Shown piece after piece: positions 2,605-38,377 of a stretch of DNA of 64,000 bases. The DNA lies in the NCBI RefSeq assembly GCF_947487605.1, contig NZ_CANKXK010000002.1, positions 124,001 to 188,000 of the forward strand, in the 5' to 3' direction. The position numbers and the translations under genes were made by a program. The stretch is from an uncultured Algibacter sp. (lineage in GTDB: Bacteria > Bacteroidota > Bacteroidia > Flavobacteriales > Flavobacteriaceae). The notes beneath the pieces were generated by a model that did not search any database, was not told the DNA's origin, and saw nothing but the letters and a program-made list of their open reading frames with translations. How positions within the stretch are numbered: the stretch's first letter is position 1; each line of letters starts with the position of its first letter.

Positions 2605-3756
2605 TTATTTTAAACTACTTTTTAAATCTTTAATGTAAAATATAAAAATAAACAGGAAAAAATAAAATTCTGGGGGGAAGTAATGACCTTGCCTCAATAG
2701 TTTTAATAAGAAGTAAACGGTTATCCCATAAACTATTGTTAAATCCTTATTTTTATTCTTAATTACTTGAAAAAACTTATAAGAGCAATAAATTAAAATT
2801 ATTAGTCCAAAAATCCCTAAATCTGATAGTATTCTTAAAAAAAGAGAGTTTGCATCAGCTTTATTAATATCTTGACTATTATTTGCTGAAATATTATAAG
2901 GTAAAATTAAATCAGATAAATATTTGTCATGCATGGTCTCAAAAGCACCTAAACCTGTTCCTAGAAAATGATCTTTAAACGAACTGTAAGAGACATATGT
3001 GTTACTAATTAATGCATAAGAGCTTAAATTTACAGTTCTATCAAATTTTTGAGTAGAAAAAACACTTAGAGAAGACATCGTTTCATTATATCTTATTTGA
3101 AAATGTTCATTCTTTGATATAAAAAAAATTAAAATGATAAAAATCGGTATATATTTTAATGATTTTTTAATGAGCCCTAGATTAGGAATAATGATAAGTA
3201 AAAGTAATCCAATTAAACCAATAGATGATTGAGATAAAATAATTGAAAATAATATGACAGAAAACTTTAGGTATGATTTATTCTTTATAAAATAATATAA
3301 TGATGGTAATAGAATTATTGCAAAACGAGACGGCTCGCTTAAAATACTGTGTAATCGATATGGATCCCATAAAGTAATATTACAATAAAACATTAAAAGA
3401 CCTAAAACCGCTACCACAAAAGAAAATTCACTGTAATACATAAAAATCTTAATGGCACCAACATATCTAACAGCATTATAATAATAAAAAGAGCATATTG
3501 AAATTCCTATTATTTGAGAAATTAAACTTGTAAAAGGATACCCAATTATAAACACAGCAATTACTCCGTGAATAAATAAAAACATAATTAATAGTAAATG
3601 ATATTTGTTGATTTTAAATTCATTAACTATAGTGAGTAAAATTGAGTTTATTATAACTATTAAATAAAAAAGTTTTAAGTCAATTATCCAATGATAATTA
3701 ATCGATTCAGAAAAAATTGCAACTATAGTTGAATATGTCAAATATTTCTTAAACAA
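2605..3756 (-). CDS. O-antigen polymerase-like membrane protein (Wzy type)
   Basis: A 383-residue integral membrane protein with roughly ten hydrophobic helices. The RLHSILSEPSRFAIILLPSL stretch near residue 135 and GTGLGAFETMHDKYL near 260 match the pattern of bacterial polysaccharide polymerases, where a Glu-Pro-(Ser)-Arg/His motif is common. The expected role is joining undecaprenyl-diphosphate repeat units on the periplasmic face. Its start overlaps the 3' end of the family 2 glycosyltransferase gene by 8 bp, which indicates translational coupling. Wzy proteins diverge quickly, so the call rests on topology, those motifs and location beside a flippase, Wzz-like proteins and glycosyltransferases. 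Confidence 0.75.
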   Translation of the reverse strand: MFKKYLTYSTIVAIFSESINYHWIIDLKLFYLIVIINSILLTIVNEFKINKYHLLLIMFLFIHGVIAVFIIGYPFTSLISQIIGISICSFYYYNAVRYVGAIKIFMYYSEFSFVVAVLGLLMFYCNITLWDPYRLHSILSEPSRFAIILLPSLYYFIKNKSYLKFSVILFSIILSQSSIGLIGLLLLIIIPNLGLIKKSLKYIPIFIILIFFISKNEHFQIRYNETMSSLSVFSTQKFDRTVNLSSYALISNTYVSYSSFKDHFLGTGLGAFETMHDKYLSDLILPYNISANNSQDINKADANSLFLRILSDLGIFGLIILIYCSYKFFQVIKNKNKDLTIVYGITVYFLLKLLRQGHYFPPEFYFFLFIFIFYIKDLKSSLK

Positions 3757-4504
3757 ATTTTAATATTTTTTTTATTTTAATCTTTAAAAATGCTATAACA
3801 AAATCCATATTCGCAATTATTATATTAACTTTTCCTGATTTATTTTTAGCCAATCTAGTTTCTAACATAACTTGCTTCACTAGACTGTTACTTAACCCTC
3901 CTGCTTCCATTTCTGCAGTAAACTCGTCCATGAACAAGTATTTTAAAGAGTCTTGAGATCTTAATAACATTTCATAATCTCCAGCTATTTTGTATTTAGT
4001 GTTATAAATACCATACTTCTTATAATAATTAGCTGAATGTAAAGAACCAACATGTGCAACATTCATATAATGCTTGAAAATTTTCCATTGCCATTTTCCT
4101 GAAATTATTCTCAATAATTTACCTTTATTTACAAGTCTAACTTTTGAGCTTACATAATCAATATTTGGATGGGACTTTAATATATTTTCATATTTTTCTA
4201 AAGCATCTGGATAATAAACATCATCAGACCCTAAAAACCCGATCCAATTTCCTTTAGCATAACTAATTCCTTTATTCCAAGCATCGTAAATTCCCTTATC
4301 TGGTTCGCTTACCCATTTAAATCTTATACCTTTTTTAATAAAGTCTTTTTCGTGTTTTTCTATAATTGATAATGTGTTGTCTTTTGAATTCCCATCAATT
4401 ATTATGTATTCAAAATTACTTGATGATTGGTTTAAAATTGAATTTATTGTCTTTCCTATTGTTTTTTCGCTATTATAAGAAGCTGTAATTATTGAAATCA
4501 ACAT
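3749..4504 (-). CDS. Family 2 glycosyltransferase (GT-A fold)
   Basis: A 251-residue enzyme that begins directly with the GT2 nucleotide-binding strand (ISIITASYNSEKTIGKTINS, residues 3-22). It continues with YIIIDGNSKDNT, WVSEPDKGIYDAWNKGI and the metal-binding FLGSDDVYYPDA, in which the DD pair is the DXD equivalent. The KGIYDAWNKGI pattern is typical of the WcaA/WcaE-like group acting on colanic-acid-type repeats. No membrane helix is evident, so it should be cytosolic or peripheral. The gene lies 10 bp after a small lipoprotein gene and overlaps the following Wzy-like gene, supporting a single operon for repeat-unit assembly. Confidence 0.88.
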   Translation of the reverse strand: MLISIITASYNSEKTIGKTINSILNQSSSNFEYIIIDGNSKDNTLSIIEKHEKDFIKKGIRFKWVSEPDKGIYDAWNKGISYAKGNWIGFLGSDDVYYPDALEKYENILKSHPNIDYVSSKVRLVNKGKLLRIISGKWQWKIFKHYMNVAHVGSLHSANYYKKYGIYNTKYKIAGDYEMLLRSQDSLKYLFMDEFTAEMEAGGLSNSLVKQVMLETRLAKNKSGKVNIIIANMDFVIAFLKIKIKKILKFV

Positions 4505-33579: not shown

Positions 33580-35931
33580 TTAGAATTCCAGTCTAAAAAC
33601 TACGTTTGGTGTTATTCCTAAAGAGGATCTATTTACCTCTCGTAACACTTCTCCAGTTTCAGTAGTGCTTTGCCTTTTTTCATAAGTTCTACTCAATATA
33701 TTCTCTTTATTATATAAATTCAAAAGAGAAACACCTAATTTTCCTTTCCATTTTTCATTTGTAGAAACATTAAACTTATACGTAGCAGAAATATCTACTC
33801 TATCATAATTAGGTAACCTGGCGCCATTTGTCTCTTTAAAATCAATAACGGTTCCATCTGGAGTATCTATTAAACCTGCAGCTTTGGTGTAAGGAATGCC
33901 TGTTCTTATATTCCACCCTAATGAAACATTAAAACGATTCCATTCATAGGTGTGAGACCATGTTAAATGATGCGTGATATCTGTATTACCCGAAAAACTT
34001 TCCCCATTATTAATATTGTCAAATGTAAAATCATTATTCATAATAGAATAACTTAACCACGTTCTGTAGTTTTGTATTTTCTTTTTTATGAGCACATCTA
34101 AACCAAATACATTACTTTTTCCTTTTGAGAAAAAATCGTCAATATTATCAAACCCTAGTGTGAAAGATGTTAAGCCTTGAATGTTTCTATAATATCCCTC
34201 GATATCAACATTCCAACCGCTATAATCTAATATAAACCCAGCTGTTAATTGTGCGCTTTCTAAAACTGGTATATTGACTCCATCTGAAAGTGCCCAAATT
34301 TGATTTTCCAATCCAAATTCTTGTGTGTTAAATTCCACAATCTGACTAACAGCCTGATGCAGGCTTTCTCCTGATATTTTAAACCTTAAACTTGAACTTA
34401 ATGCTCTTTCTATTTGCACGCGTGGTTCAACAAAGAGTTGATCGGATACCGAAAAATAATTAGTTCTTATTCCAGCATTTATAAACCATTTGTTTTTTGT
34501 TTTATATCGATATTCTAAATAAAGAGCCTGCGTGTTATTTGTGTCAATATTAGATTCGTCAAAATTTTCTTCTGGTGCTTCACTATCAATGAAATTTAAA
34601 CCGTAAGCGACTTTATTTGATGAAAATTGATAGCCCAAGCCTAAAGACTTTGTTGAATTAAGTTTCCAATCTGTATCAAATGAAAAACCCAAATCTTGAA
34701 TTTTGTTTTGTTTGTTAAGCGCATCACTAAACTCATCTGTTATGCTATTGCTTCCAATATAGTCTAACTCAAAATCGGAAATGTATACATTAAGCTCATG
34801 CGAAAATGACTCACTAGATTCATGATTCCAATTAAAACTTGTTCCTTGATTAATTATTTCTAATTTGTCCTGAGACGCTTCTTCAAACTCTTCAATTAAG
34901 AAACCATAATCAAGTTTGTTTTTAGTGTAAAGGCTACTTATTGTGAATTGGTTTTTTGCATTTGGTTTTAACATTGCTTTTACAGTAAAATCTGTAAAAT
35001 AAAATATGTCCTTAGTTGTTAAAAATTCATCATCCTCAAAAATCTTGTTCCCGTCAGAAATTTTTGTTTCCTGAAATACTCTTTGAGATAAATTACGAAA
35101 GGTTTCGGTATCAAAAGCATCTGTAATGGATCTTCTTGCTGAAACCATTACAGCAGATTTATTATCAAGAGGAGCTTTTAAATACGCATCTGCATGGGTC
35201 ATATTAAAACCAAAACCGCCATTAATTTCTTTAGGTATTTCGCTGTCTGATGTAATATCTATAACGCCCGAAATTCTATTACCATAACGTGCTTTAGTCC
35301 CGTTTTTATATACTTTTATTTCATCGGTTATATATGGGTTAAAGGCTGAAATTGTTCCGAAAAAATGCCCAGAATGGTACATTTTAATTCCATCCCAAAG
35401 AATTAGGTTTTGATCTGGAGTACCCCCTCTAATATATAACCCCGCTGCCGTTTCGGTGGGACTTTGTACGCCTGGAATCAATTGAATACTTTGTAAAACA
35501 TCTGGTTCGGTTAAACCTGGAAGAATTCCTAATTTTTGTGGAGAAAGGGAAATAGAAGCATCATCATTTTTTTTGCTAATACCCGTGGTTAAATATTCTT
35601 CTATTAAAACTTCATCTAACTCTTGTGTATCAGTTAAACGGAGTCGCCTGCTCTTAACTGTGTAATAACGTTCGGATTCTTTTTTAATTCTAATAGCTGC
35701 TTTTTCTTCTAAAAAAAACAAAATATCTTCAAGTAGGGCTTCTTTTAATTGAAGGGTTATAAACCTGTCATTTACTAATTCAGAATTATACGAAAACTTG
35801 ATATTAAATTTTTCTTCTAATTCCGAAAAAACAACACTTATTGGTTCGTTTAAATAGTTTAAGGTTGCCCTGTTTTGAGCTGTTACATATAACGAAAAGA
35901 AAAAAAAGAAAATCGCTATGTTAAATTTCAT
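33580..35931 (-). CDS. TonB-dependent outer-membrane receptor with N-terminal STN signalling domain
   Basis: A 783-residue receptor with a signal peptide (1-18). An STN domain occupies about 20-95 (ISVVFSELEEKFNIKFSYNS). The plug is at about 130-240 (QSIQLIPGVQSPTETAAGLY, then RGGTPDQNLILWDGIKMYHS). A C-terminal 22-strand barrel ends in VVFRLEF, with the final aromatic residue used by the BAM machinery. The STN domain is the part that talks to FecR-type anti-sigma factors, and the two genes upstream encode exactly such a pair. It has no CarboxypepD_reg domain and no SusD partner, so siderophore or other small-ligand uptake is more likely than glycan uptake. The ligand is unknown. Confidence 0.92.
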   Translation of the reverse strand: MKFNIAIFFFFFSLYVTAQNRATLNYLNEPISVVFSELEEKFNIKFSYNSELVNDRFITLQLKEALLEDILFFLEEKAAIRIKKESERYYTVKSRRLRLTDTQELDEVLIEEYLTTGISKKNDDASISLSPQKLGILPGLTEPDVLQSIQLIPGVQSPTETAAGLYIRGGTPDQNLILWDGIKMYHSGHFFGTISAFNPYITDEIKVYKNGTKARYGNRISGVIDITSDSEIPKEINGGFGFNMTHADAYLKAPLDNKSAVMVSARRSITDAFDTETFRNLSQRVFQETKISDGNKIFEDDEFLTTKDIFYFTDFTVKAMLKPNAKNQFTISSLYTKNKLDYGFLIEEFEEASQDKLEIINQGTSFNWNHESSESFSHELNVYISDFELDYIGSNSITDEFSDALNKQNKIQDLGFSFDTDWKLNSTKSLGLGYQFSSNKVAYGLNFIDSEAPEENFDESNIDTNNTQALYLEYRYKTKNKWFINAGIRTNYFSVSDQLFVEPRVQIERALSSSLRFKISGESLHQAVSQIVEFNTQEFGLENQIWALSDGVNIPVLESAQLTAGFILDYSGWNVDIEGYYRNIQGLTSFTLGFDNIDDFFSKGKSNVFGLDVLIKKKIQNYRTWLSYSIMNNDFTFDNINNGESFSGNTDITHHLTWSHTYEWNRFNVSLGWNIRTGIPYTKAAGLIDTPDGTVIDFKETNGARLPNYDRVDISATYKFNVSTNEKWKGKLGVSLLNLYNKENILSRTYEKRQSTTETGEVLREVNRSSLGITPNVVFRLEF

Positions 35932-35997: not shown

Positions 35998-36933
35998 TTA
36001 GTTATTGTTATTTGAATTAAGAAGAATAATACCTGTTTCTTTATCAACAGAATACGATAACCCCATTGGCACAGAGATAGTTTTTAAGGCTAATTTTAAA
36101 TCTTTATGTGTGAAAGCTCCTGTAAAACGTTTATTACTATCTATGTTAGATTTATCAAGCGTAATATTGAATTGATTTTCTAAAGACATTAATACCTGAT
36201 TTATAGGTGTATTTTTAAACGTGCTTTCTCCTAAAGTCCAGTTTGATTCGGTTAAGGCAAAATCCCATTCTTCCAAACTGTTATTTACTACACGAACAGC
36301 GTCTCCAGGTAAAAGAATAACATTTTTCTTTAAAACGGTACTTGTTACTCTTACTTTACCTTCCATACACTGTACTTCAAAATAAGAATCACGAGAAATT
36401 ACATTAAATTCTGTACCTAGTACTTCTACCATTCCAACATCTGTAAAAACTTTAAAAGACTCTCCTTTTTCAACATCGAAAAAAGCTTCTCCATCTAATT
36501 GTAAAGCACGATTAGATTTCCATCCTAATGTTTTATAATCTAGATGACTATTTGCATTAAGCTTTACTTCAGAATTATCTGGAAGCACAACAGCCAATTG
36601 CTCACTAAATCCTGTTTCAAAATGCGATTTCATTGTCATTACATAAAATAAACCAAATGCAATAACTACTGCAGCGGCAGCATATGCCCAATTGGGTATA
36701 AGTTTAACAACTTTCCCTTTAGGTCTTGTTGATTGTAAATTATTTAGTTCTTGTAATTTGTTTAATAGTGCTTGATCGTTAAAAGTAGGTGCTTTTAGAT
36801 TTTGGGACGCATCATTAATTCTTTTAAGAACGGGATAATCATCAGATTTTTGAAACTTTTCTAGCTCTTGCGGAGATAAATCTCCCGCAATCCAACGTGC
36901 TAAAAAAGCATTGTCTTTAATATATTTCTCCAT
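35998..36933 (-). CDS. FecR family anti-sigma factor
   Basis: A 311-residue FecR-type regulator with one membrane helix at about 83-100 (PNWAYAAAAVVIAFGLFYVM). The cytosolic N-terminus contains the ARWIAGDLSPQELEKFQ sigma-binding segment. The periplasmic FecR domain follows, with VVLPDNSEVKLNANSHLDY and DGEAFFDVEKGESFKVFTDV. A C-terminal DUF4974-type domain carries TFKNTPINQVLMSLENQFNI. It transmits the signal from the receptor STN domain to the ECF sigma factor encoded upstream. It is spaced 52 bp from the sigma gene, and the gap contains a promoter-like motif. Confidence 0.93.
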   Translation of the reverse strand: MEKYIKDNAFLARWIAGDLSPQELEKFQKSDDYPVLKRINDASQNLKAPTFNDQALLNKLQELNNLQSTRPKGKVVKLIPNWAYAAAAVVIAFGLFYVMTMKSHFETGFSEQLAVVLPDNSEVKLNANSHLDYKTLGWKSNRALQLDGEAFFDVEKGESFKVFTDVGMVEVLGTEFNVISRDSYFEVQCMEGKVRVTSTVLKKNVILLPGDAVRVVNNSLEEWDFALTESNWTLGESTFKNTPINQVLMSLENQFNITLDKSNIDSNKRFTGAFTHKDLKLALKTISVPMGLSYSVDKETGIILLNSNNNN

Positions 36934-36953: not shown

Positions 36954-36985
36954 ATATAAACAGTTGGAGTTCATTTTACCCTACT
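36954..36985 (-). promoter_or_regulatory. Candidate ECF-sigma promoter ahead of fecR (copy 1)
   Basis: Reading leftward from just after the sigma-factor stop codon: AGTAGGGT, 12 bases, then AACTGT and an AT stretch. The same two boxes with the same 12-base spacing occur on the other strand at 37555-37590. The two-box form with a G-rich upstream element suggests an ECF-type promoter recognised by the sigma factor encoded next to it. That assignment is inference. Confidence 0.5.
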
Positions 36986-37498
36986 TTAAATGTTACCTAA
37001 TTTTTCTCTTAATGTAATTAAAGCCAAACTCATACGTTTTTCAACTGCTTTAACTGAAACACCTACTATTTCAGAAATTTCAGAATATTTCTTTTTATCA
37101 ATTCTACTCAATAAGAATACTTCTCGTTGCTTTTCAGGCAAATCGGCAATTACTTTTTTTAGCTTTATCATAAACTCTTGCTCCTCCATTAAAAATTCTG
37201 GAGATTCATTTGTTCTATCATTAAAAGATAACGATTGATGTTGAAGCACTATTTTTTTATGAGCTACTTCATTTAAAAAAAGATTTCGGGCTACGGTATA
37301 TAAATAGGACTTTGCTTTATCAAATATTACTTTAGAGCAATTGTACCAAAGTTTAACAAATGTGTCTTGAACAATATCTTCTGCCTGCTGTCTATCGCCA
37401 CATTTGTAATACACAAAATTAAAAAGCGATTTAGAGTGAGTTCTAAATAGATGCTCGTAGTTTATTTCCTCACAGACAGATTTGGTTTCCTTATTCAT
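36986..37498 (-). CDS. FecI-like ECF RNA polymerase sigma factor
   Basis: A 170-residue sigma-70 family protein with regions 2 and 4 only. Region 2 contains LFNFVYYKCGDRQQAEDIVQ and DTFVKLWYNCSKVI. Region 4 contains VIADLPEKQREVFLLSRIDK and the helix-turn-helix KKYSEISEIVGVSVKAVEKR. This is the standard size of Bacteroidota FecI-type factors. It should direct transcription of the receptor locus when released by the FecR-like protein encoded downstream. It is the first gene of the fecI-fecR-receptor set. Confidence 0.93.
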   Translation of the reverse strand: MNKETKSVCEEINYEHLFRTHSKSLFNFVYYKCGDRQQAEDIVQDTFVKLWYNCSKVIFDKAKSYLYTVARNLFLNEVAHKKIVLQHQSLSFNDRTNESPEFLMEEQEFMIKLKKVIADLPEKQREVFLLSRIDKKKYSEISEIVGVSVKAVEKRMSLALITLREKLGNI

Positions 37499-37849
37499 AT
37501 ATGCATAAAAGTACGTAGGTCTTATTGTTCAAAATTAAAAAAATTAAACTAATAAGTAGGGTGTTTTCTTTTTTAACTGTTATACATATAAACGAAGTTG
37601 TTTAGCCCCAAATAACAAACGAGATTTTTTTAGCCCCAAGCTAAGCCCTTATTTACTTTTAACTTACCTACATTTTATGGATTTTCGCAATTCCATGTCT
37701 TAAAATAATATTTGAGATTTGGTTTAAATAGTAATGAAGAATTACATGGTATTGCATTCAGGTTTAATTACCTGAAAAGGTTGAGTTAGCTAATTTGCGC
37801 CAAAGCATGTCCCCAATCAATAAGACTTTGTCGCAAATTTGCAACTTAA
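37499..37849. other. 351-bp intergenic region between divergent sigma-factor and DUF6438 genes
   Basis: No gene is visible. It holds the second copy of the promoter-like motif (37555-37590, plus strand) and an 11-base direct repeat TTTAGCCCCAA at 37601-37611 and 37629-37639, 28 bp apart. The rest is AT-rich with no clear promoter for the sigma gene. A palindrome GCAAATTTGC lies at 37833-37842, shortly before the DUF6438 start. Confidence 0.6.
37555..37590 (+). promoter_or_regulatory. Candidate ECF-sigma promoter pointing toward the DUF6438 gene (copy 2)
   Basis: AGTAGGGT at 37555-37562, a 12-base spacer, and AACTGT at 37575-37580 followed by TATACATATA. Both boxes and the spacer length are identical to copy 1 at 36954-36985, but the orientation is rightward, away from the sigma gene and toward the DUF6438 gene 260 bp downstream. 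Confidence 0.45.
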
Positions 37850-38293
37850 ATGAAAAAGAATGTTGAACCGATAGACAAAGTTGCTATGACTTTATTAACG
37901 TCTTATTTTGTGAGTAAGCAAGAAAAATTAAAAGATACAAATGACGCCTTTTTAAGTTTGTCTAAAGGTAAATGTCAAAATAATTGCCCCGTTTACGATT
38001 TGTGGATTTTTGAAAACGGTCAAGTTATTTATAAAGGCATTGAGAATGTAATAAAATTAGGTGTTCACACAACCACTATATCGACAGATATTGTTAGACA
38101 AATGAACGATTTTATTTTAAACTCTAATTCAAGAGATATTGGTGATGCTAAGGGTAGAGACAACCCTTTAACTATAATAAAATTTAATAATAAAAAGATT
38201 GTGTTTCAATCGCAAAGAGCAAAAGGGAATTTATTAGAATTAAATAATCTGCTCGAGCATATTGCAAATATGATAAACGAAGACAACAATTAA
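37850..38293 (+). CDS. DUF6438-type small protein
   Basis: A 147-residue protein with no signal peptide or membrane segment. LSLSKGKCQNNCPVYDLWIF at about 36-55, followed by ENGQVIYKGIENV, matches the opening of the DUF6438 domain. In that domain a G-x-C-x-x-x-C-P-x-Y box precedes a beta-meander. The two Cys could form a disulfide or bind metal. Function is unknown. It is the only plus-strand gene near the sigma locus and is followed at once by a strong terminator, so it is monocistronic. Many relatives carry a lipoprotein signal; this one seems to lack it, which may mean a different start or a cytosolic form. Confidence 0.7.
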   Translation: MKKNVEPIDKVAMTLLTSYFVSKQEKLKDTNDAFLSLSKGKCQNNCPVYDLWIFENGQVIYKGIENVIKLGVHTTTISTDIVRQMNDFILNSNSRDIGDAKGRDNPLTIIKFNNKKIVFQSQRAKGNLLELNNLLEHIANMINEDNN

Positions 38294-38343
38294 AATATAA
38301 AAAAACAAATAAAAGAGAATGAGGGTTCAAGCTTTTATTGTGT

Positions 38344-38377
38344 ACCTCCGCTAAACCTTACTAGCGGAGGTTTTTTA
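38344..38377 (+). terminator. Rho-independent terminator of the DUF6438 gene
   Basis: A perfect 10-bp stem (ACCTCCGCTA pairing with TAGCGGAGGT) with an 8-base loop and a run of six T at 38371-38376. It lies 50 bp after the stop codon. Confidence 0.9.

Follow-up and report, generated by a model that had tools for sequence, protein, structure and literature searches.

Within the window, by which we mean the whole stretch of 64,000 nucleotides of Algibacter sp. DNA that was analysed, genes for a sigma factor, a FecR-type regulator and a TonB receptor follow one another, in this order, on the minus strand, and a DUF6438 gene lies divergently on the plus strand. The features of the locus are as follows:

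33580..35931, minus: TonB-dependent receptor gene, 783 aa; Pfam Plug, TonB_dep_Rec_b-barrel and FecR_C
35998..36933, minus: fecR-type anti-sigma gene, 311 aa; Pfam FecR and FecR_C
36960..36985, minus: putative promoter copy 1, AGTAGGGT-N12-AACTGT, exact match, upstream of fecR and the receptor gene
36986..37498, minus: ECF (FecI-like) sigma factor gene, 170 aa; Pfam Sigma70_r2 and Sigma70_r4_2
37531..37549, plus: conserved A/T tract upstream of copy 2 (alignment of 10 loci)
37555..37580, plus: putative promoter copy 2, AGTAGGGT-N12-AACTGT, exact match, pointing away from the sigma gene
37604..37611, plus: first AGCCCCAA leader element, CCCC-A-rich and varied, in most of the 10 aligned loci and in L291, L292, L294 and L326
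37632..37639, plus: second AGCCCCAA leader element (alignment of 10 loci and the same named loci)
37782..37848, plus: leader hairpin with GTCCCCAA in its loop at 37809-37816, a third CCCCAA-type element
37886..38293, plus: DUF6438 gene (Pfam DUF6438), encoding 135 aa when read from the probable start; the listed ORF opens at 37850
38307..38372, plus: 3' element, consisting of an invariant ATGAGGGTT followed by an intrinsic terminator (stem at about 38344-38371, T run)

The ECF sigma, fecR and TonB receptor genes are adjacent, and the receptor possesses an N-terminal match to FecR_C (residues 26-89, 26.9 bits against the Pfam cut-off of 24.4), which we read as an STN-like signalling domain. Such is the composition of FecI/FecR/TonB-receptor systems, and by its gene content the locus is a cell-surface-signalling system. 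No SusD was found among the four locus proteins scanned with Pfam. The best NCBIfam model for the sigma factor was TIGR02985 (Sig70_bacteroi1), with a score of 125.6 bits, slightly below the cut-off of 126.4; the closest named relative, as judged by the sigma factor among the best 80 of 541 matches, is Hyunsoonleella aestuarii (L284), 89% identical, which by this measure would probably place the DNA in or near that genus. The identities of the four neighbours, proposed in an earlier sequence-only reading of this DNA, were borne out by Pfam, with the start of the DUF6438 gene moved. Comparison of 10 loci favoured the ATG at 37886 over the start of the longest ORF at 37850, which is probably wrong; the aligned counterpart of the stretch before 37886 contains stop codons in some relatives. 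The distance from box 2 of the second promoter copy to the DUF6438 gene is therefore 305 nt.

Two outward copies of one promoter-like motif

The same reading had placed two exact copies of a two-box motif around the sigma gene, at 36985-36960 on the minus strand and at 37555-37580 on the plus strand, and both were found there without a mismatch. In copy 1, box 1 starts immediately after the sigma stop codon, and 26 nt separate box 2 from the FecR ATG. Transcription would start at about 36950 from copy 1 and at about 37588 from copy 2, and the A/T tract preceding the latter may be UP-element-like. In the whole genome (3,375,942 bases), AGTAGGGT-N12-AACTGT occurs exactly twice, with 0 matches for a control read backwards, and these two copies are also the only zero-mismatch matches in the window. 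When one mismatch was allowed in a 13-position form of the motif, 3 more places appeared in the genome against 2 in the control; thus, nothing further stands out, and the idea of a regulon scattered over this genome was abandoned. No site of the same type serving the sigma gene in its own direction was found at the window locus, where the best match has 6 mismatches in 13 positions.

The full motif is present in 5 of 60 genomes (own included), and in G000, G001 and G025 the same gene is flanked by such a divergent pair. The 13-base form, used for the search of the family, was found at 126 places in 82 of 397 family genomes, against 22 for the backwards control. Among the 120 of these places that were read (the other six are in G273, G259 and G410), 34 lie 7-31 nt upstream of a FecR homologue, with 28 of the 34 at 20-28 nt, and another 16 precede a sigma homologue by 35-62 nt, facing away from it. 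Some of the remaining places precede unrelated genes, and some, chance-like, are located within long ORFs.

Two sets of loci chosen by their sigma factors were scanned for a core of 10 positions, GTAGGGT-N15-TGT. In the first set, for which likeness of the sigma factor was the sole criterion (the best 80 of 541 matches), the exact core was present in the sigma-fecR gap of 65/80 loci and in the divergent position of 48/80. In the second, comprising 30 automatically chosen and 60 hand-picked sigma matches, the respective numbers were 44/90 and 47/90, which are probably under-counts, since several loci already found through the motif were omitted from this set. On the opposite strand, the exact core was found 0 and 0 times in each set. 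With one mismatch, this control gave 5/80 and 2/90 matches upstream of the sigma gene and 0/80 and 0/90 in the gap, and four of the control-strand matches upstream of sigma look like genuine own-direction sites. These control counts indicate that the sigma gene is usually flanked by a site facing outward on either side and has no site of its own. The proposal, made from the window, that two ECF-type promoters flank the sigma gene is thus supported by both sets: the motif is not scattered at random, its placement being tied to the starts of fecR and sigma genes, and it is not missing upstream of fecR in relatives. As the opposite-strand controls were clean in both sets, we conclude that modules composed of ECF sigma, FecR and TonB receptor bear a pair of putative sigma-type promoters facing outward; as far as comparison of sequences can tell, this pair of putative promoters is a general design of the sigma group.

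It might be argued that the sites are operators of a DNA-binding regulator and that the sigma factor uses other sequences nearby, and in our judgement box 1 is indeed unusually G-rich for a -35 element. We regard such an explanation as very unlikely, given that the sites have a single orientation, lie at a short and similar distance from the next start codon in many loci, and are tied in their placement to sigma genes while being absent from the opposite strand. Two conserved boxes with fixed spacing, located upstream of sigma-linked genes, are what marks ECF promoters, and the promoter reading is well supported by the comparison, with the sites presumably being read by this sigma factor.

Neither outward site was seen at one mismatch or less in 8/80 and 25/90 loci. 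Four of the 8 (L327, L336, L360 and L363) have a one-mismatch copy 21-61 nt ahead of the sigma gene in its own direction. It looks as if the promoter had been moved rather than lost in these four loci, and the sigma factor may possibly be autoregulated there. L169, from the 90-locus set, has such a one-mismatch copy 98 nt before sigma. Among 16 loci with Tenacibaculum in their titles, 12 are devoid of the divergent site and 10 have the fecR site only. Beyond the family, sigma matches (E <= 1e-30) were found in 7/119 genomes of the class, 3 of the 7 belonging to the family itself. The five beyond-family matches come from four genomes: L369 has the pair, with one mismatch in the divergent site, L367 has a pair of the GGTAGGAG variant, two have neither site, and one is only partly readable.

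Two side observations concern sites in other genomes. In G385 (L062-L067) there are 8 matches, five of them 31-55 nt upstream of genes for exported proteins, in which Pfam found Peptidase_S8, Reprolysin_4, Peptidase_M43 plus Por_Secre_tail, Peptidase_M14 or BNR_2; these sites could perhaps form a secreted-protease regulon. A paralogous sigma gene in one genome (L196/L370, G000:C1:224662-225147) is preceded by a GGTAGGAATTTTT-like sequence, which suggests a possible second specificity of the same design.

The letters of the boxes tend to agree within a locus, a sign that one sigma factor may read both sites. In 40 two-site loci, 12.13 of 14 box letters were shared within the locus against 11.46 across loci, a value reached by 0/5000 shuffles. 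The spacers matched at 5.2 of 12 positions against 4.5 after shuffling (p 0.0024), so ancestry may contribute to this likeness. In 3 loci both copies read GGAA in box 1 where GGGT is usual, and in 4 loci both read CGGT in box 2 instead of CTGT or TTGT. The final letters of box 2, T, G and T, occur in 95, 100 and 100% of 144 fecR-side sites and in 93, 97 and 99% of 143 divergent sites, percentages that refer to sites accepted by a scan favouring those same letters. The base after box 2 is T in 95/115 and 91/105 sites and C in 18 and 12, giving cTGTT. Pairing of sigma residues with box letters at the divergent site (box 1 with region 4, 0.161 vs 0.117 bits; box 2 with region 2, 0.189 vs 0.160) showed a trend too weak to be used as evidence. 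Among individual loci, L149, L162 and L168 have AATAGGGT boxes at both sites and a thioredoxin-like divergent gene (Pfam was run on L162 only). In L328, L332, L337, L339, L342-L345, L348-L350, L352, L356 and L362, mostly Aquimarina, box 2 is followed after 22-23 nt by the start of the divergent ORF, whose product looks similar, by eye, to the L153 7TM transglutaminase protein; in some of them, both sites have the CGGT box 2.

In L286, the copies at G025:C2:3392467-3392492 and 3393064-3393089 agree in all 26 bases, boxes and spacer alike, and form an inverted repeat around the sigma gene, which gene conversion or inversion could explain. Such identity would fit recombination sites inverting the sigma gene, the two outward sites being inverted repeats. 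We find this most improbable: in the other two-site loci, among those listed, the spacers differ, the sigma gene points to a FecR homologue in most loci, and single sites are found upstream of other genes too.

In the light of these results, we propose, with a probability of roughly 0.84, a surface-signalling module in which the sigma factor fires two outward promoters, one for fecR and the receptor and the other for the output of the module. The receptor would sense its ligand and then free the ECF sigma factor through FecR, and RNA polymerase with this sigma would start at both identical promoters flanking the sigma gene and run outward. The minus-strand transcript would yield fecR and the receptor, so that feedback would pass through the anti-sigma factor and the sensor and not through sigma, itself presumably made from a housekeeping promoter. 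The plus-strand transcript would be the output, which in the window clade would be about 800 nt long and extend from a structured leader through DUF6438 to a conserved terminator.

The output of the divergent promoter

A divergent site with at most one mismatch is present in 105 of 165 pooled loci, a pool that contains some genomes twice (e.g. L124/L293, L130/L311 and L137/L359). Classes of cargo were assigned by simple text tests, which misfiled some loci: a lipoprotein-like ORF follows in 47 cases after a leader of at most 70 nt and in 7 after a longer one, another ORF in 21 (short leader) and 4 (longer leader), a thioredoxin-like ORF in 1 and DUF6438 in 9, with L292, filed as other, making the tenth, and no ORF of at least 70 aa lies within 330 nt in 16. 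The putative divergent output thus changes between lineages, and a lipoprotein is the most frequent predicted one. When ten divergent proteins were scanned with Pfam, one matched Thioredoxin_7 and one was a 7TM transglutaminase protein; for the lipoproteins among them no clear function emerged, apart from weak matches to DUF7767 in two.

DUF6438 homologues were found in 20/395 genomes, and in the 17 of them that were examined (all except G019, G073 and G292) the gene diverges from a sigma gene of the related kind. This synteny supports the early suggestion that DUF6438 belongs to the regulon; against it, in three of the 17 (G100, G119 and G310) the divergent core site was not seen within one mismatch. 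In G350, G263, G414, G143, G100, G342 and G310, a gene for a lipoprotein of 331-364 aa lies between sigma and DUF6438, and in these seven genomes as well as in G171 and G119 (nine in all) DUF6438 has a lipobox-like Cys. The window clade (10 loci) has no such lipoprotein gene, and its DUF6438 leader is 242-305 nt long; the protein begins with MTLLTSYF or similar, at the place taken in relatives by a signal peptide with its lipobox Cys. The simplest reading would be a loss in this clade.

The long leader contains a hairpin that occurs once in this genome and has a z-score of -4.66; 4/13 of its consensus pairs show two-sided changes with pairing kept (10 sequences), and G178 breaks five pairs. 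The 3' element has a z-score of -5.06, and kept two-sided changes in 8/14 consensus pairs (9 sequences). Models of the 3' element (R1) and the hairpin (R2), built from 9 and 10 sequences, gave strong hits, with strict filters on, at this locus only, in 9 and 10 of 395 genomes; these being the genomes from which the models were built, the search demonstrates restriction to the locus and not new finds. R1 also matched weakly, with 28-33 bits, in five further genomes. In new loci, R1 was found in L288, L289, L291 and L292, and R2 in L288, L289, L291, L294 and L326. Rfam at the gathering score recognised only tRNA, one in the window and one in six related loci, and below that score the locus gave weak matches to assorted, unrelated families.

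Other candidates for the content of this region were rejected or not found. No conserved small ORF was noticed by eye in the leader in the alignment of 10 loci. ATGAGGGTT is not taken as a peptide start: its first three codons are invariant, those beyond them vary, and in L215 a stop follows the third. Pairing of CCCCAA with the receptor leader was dismissed as well, TTTGGG being present in the fecR-receptor gap of the window and of L289 and not of most others listed. In L307, at about 3540-3800 on the minus strand, three tandem similar hairpins (TTAGTTGGTTATAATTTGCGGCAAAG-like) stand behind the divergent site, with no ORF of at least 70 aa.

One explanation of these elements is that the leader is no more than the untranslated 5' part of the DUF6438 mRNA, perhaps including a hairpin that acts in cis, and that loci devoid of the ORF are relics or assembly faults; we give it close to an even chance. 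In G350 the hairpin lies between the lipoprotein gene and DUF6438, that is, it stays with DUF6438 and not with the promoter, and purifying selection acts on the DUF6438 gene (dN 0.22 vs dS 1.05 for L285/L289). In L292, DUF6438 and the 3' element (76.2 bits) are retained with next to no match to the hairpin (20.7 bits), so loss of the hairpin does occur. On the other hand, both RNA elements are kept in L293, from the same contig as G071, where DUF6438 is absent and the 3' element follows about 32 nt past the hairpin (R2 81.0 and R1 70.7 bits). L294 and L326 show the same less strongly, each having the hairpin (R2 44.1 bits in both) and a weak 3' element (R1 20.9 and 24.0) without an ORF; the hairpin of L294 alone has a z-score of -1.0, barely better than shuffles. 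All three ORF-less loci come from MAGs, which is in line with assembly faults.

The second set of data weighing against a mere untranslated region comes from Kordia. In five of eight Kordia loci, a stretch of about 330 nt with an apparent intrinsic terminator at its end lies behind the divergent promoter; L310 and L321 have no divergent site, and L338 was left out of the alignment. The 410 bases including the promoter are 88.7-97.6% identical, against 81.3-95.1% for the sigma genes (gap columns excluded), and this stretch is more conserved than the sigma gene in 10/10 pairs. An ORF of 35-62 codons is open in 5/5, and is unlikely to encode a small protein: its variable sites are evenly spread over the codon positions (5, 4 and 3) and 7/8 variable codons are non-synonymous, thus the region looks non-coding. 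Folding gave 93 predicted pairs, none with two-sided changes; the Kordia case therefore rests on sequence conservation.

A sigma-dependent RNA is a plausible candidate product of the second promoter; in the window clade, the module may deliver DUF6438, this RNA or both. The stronger proposal, that the main product of this promoter would be a structured regulatory RNA, with DUF6438 as a passenger in the window clade and no ORF in Kordia, Aestuariibaculum and some MAGs, is one we put forward tentatively, at somewhat worse than even odds. The repeated CCCCAA elements of such an RNA would be sites of pairing or protein binding.

Relation to known systems

The locus resembles the ferric citrate system of E. 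coli, FecI/FecR/FecA, in combining an ECF sigma factor, a FecR-type regulator and a TonB receptor with a signalling domain. According to the available portion of PMC9249621, fecIR forms one transcript that is not autoregulated, and FecI reads fecA. Here, too, the layout leaves sigma out of its own feedback loop; unlike in the E. coli system as described there, the gap between sigma and fecR holds a putative sigma-type promoter, and another faces the opposite way (PMC9249621). The same kinds of genes occur, in the same phylum, in the ECF sigma/anti-sigma pairs of Bacteroidota polysaccharide utilisation loci (PMC11501099, in excerpt). By the description given in that excerpt, our locus differs from them in having no SusD among its four scanned proteins and in its putative divergent output of a lipoprotein, DUF6438 or RNA (PMC11501099).

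As for the promoter itself, TGTT near -10 is shared with two SigW-1 promoters of B. thetaiotaomicron, where, in the excerpted text, the motif search was not significant (PMC12596196). PM2 of the same species is reported in part of PMC7366714 as a non-canonical promoter with elements at -10 and -30; it differs, when compared by description, in being near-palindromic and tied to oxidative stress. SM6 of Flavobacterium psychrophilum, a species of the same family, is an ECF-type promoter inferred from mapped start sites, and has a CGT box, whereas the window copies have TGT and GTAGGGT; further ECF-controlled starts may remain to be found in that species (PMC9723704, in excerpt). The excerpted sources count 7 ECF sigma factors in F. 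psychrophilum (PMC9723704) and 50 in B. thetaiotaomicron (PMC12596196), and, judging from these excerpts, few promoter sequences have been assigned to Bacteroidota ECF sigma factors. A readable promoter signature of this sigma group makes its targets predictable from sequence. Among the matches listed, the open literature gave no description of GTAGGGT-N12-AACTGT, the outward pair, the candidate RNA or DUF6438, and an earlier account in print is possible.

Enterobacterial MicA and RybB are Sigma-E dependent small RNAs. By analogy, they would be the nearest functional parallel of the candidate RNA, in that a sigma factor responding to an envelope signal drives a small RNA; unlike them, the predicted unit in the window is longer and stands back-to-back with the sigma gene. 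The DonS family of antisense RNAs in Bacteroides, as presented in part of PMC7366714, offers another likeness, a non-coding RNA beside TonB/SusC-type genes, with the difference that DonS is antisense to susC and the candidate RNA is divergent from the sigma gene. If the regulatory RNA proposed here is real, the Bacteroidota would have an equivalent of the non-coding branch of the sigma-E response, and the candidate sigma-driven RNA would make an RNA output of Bacteroidota surface signalling directly testable.
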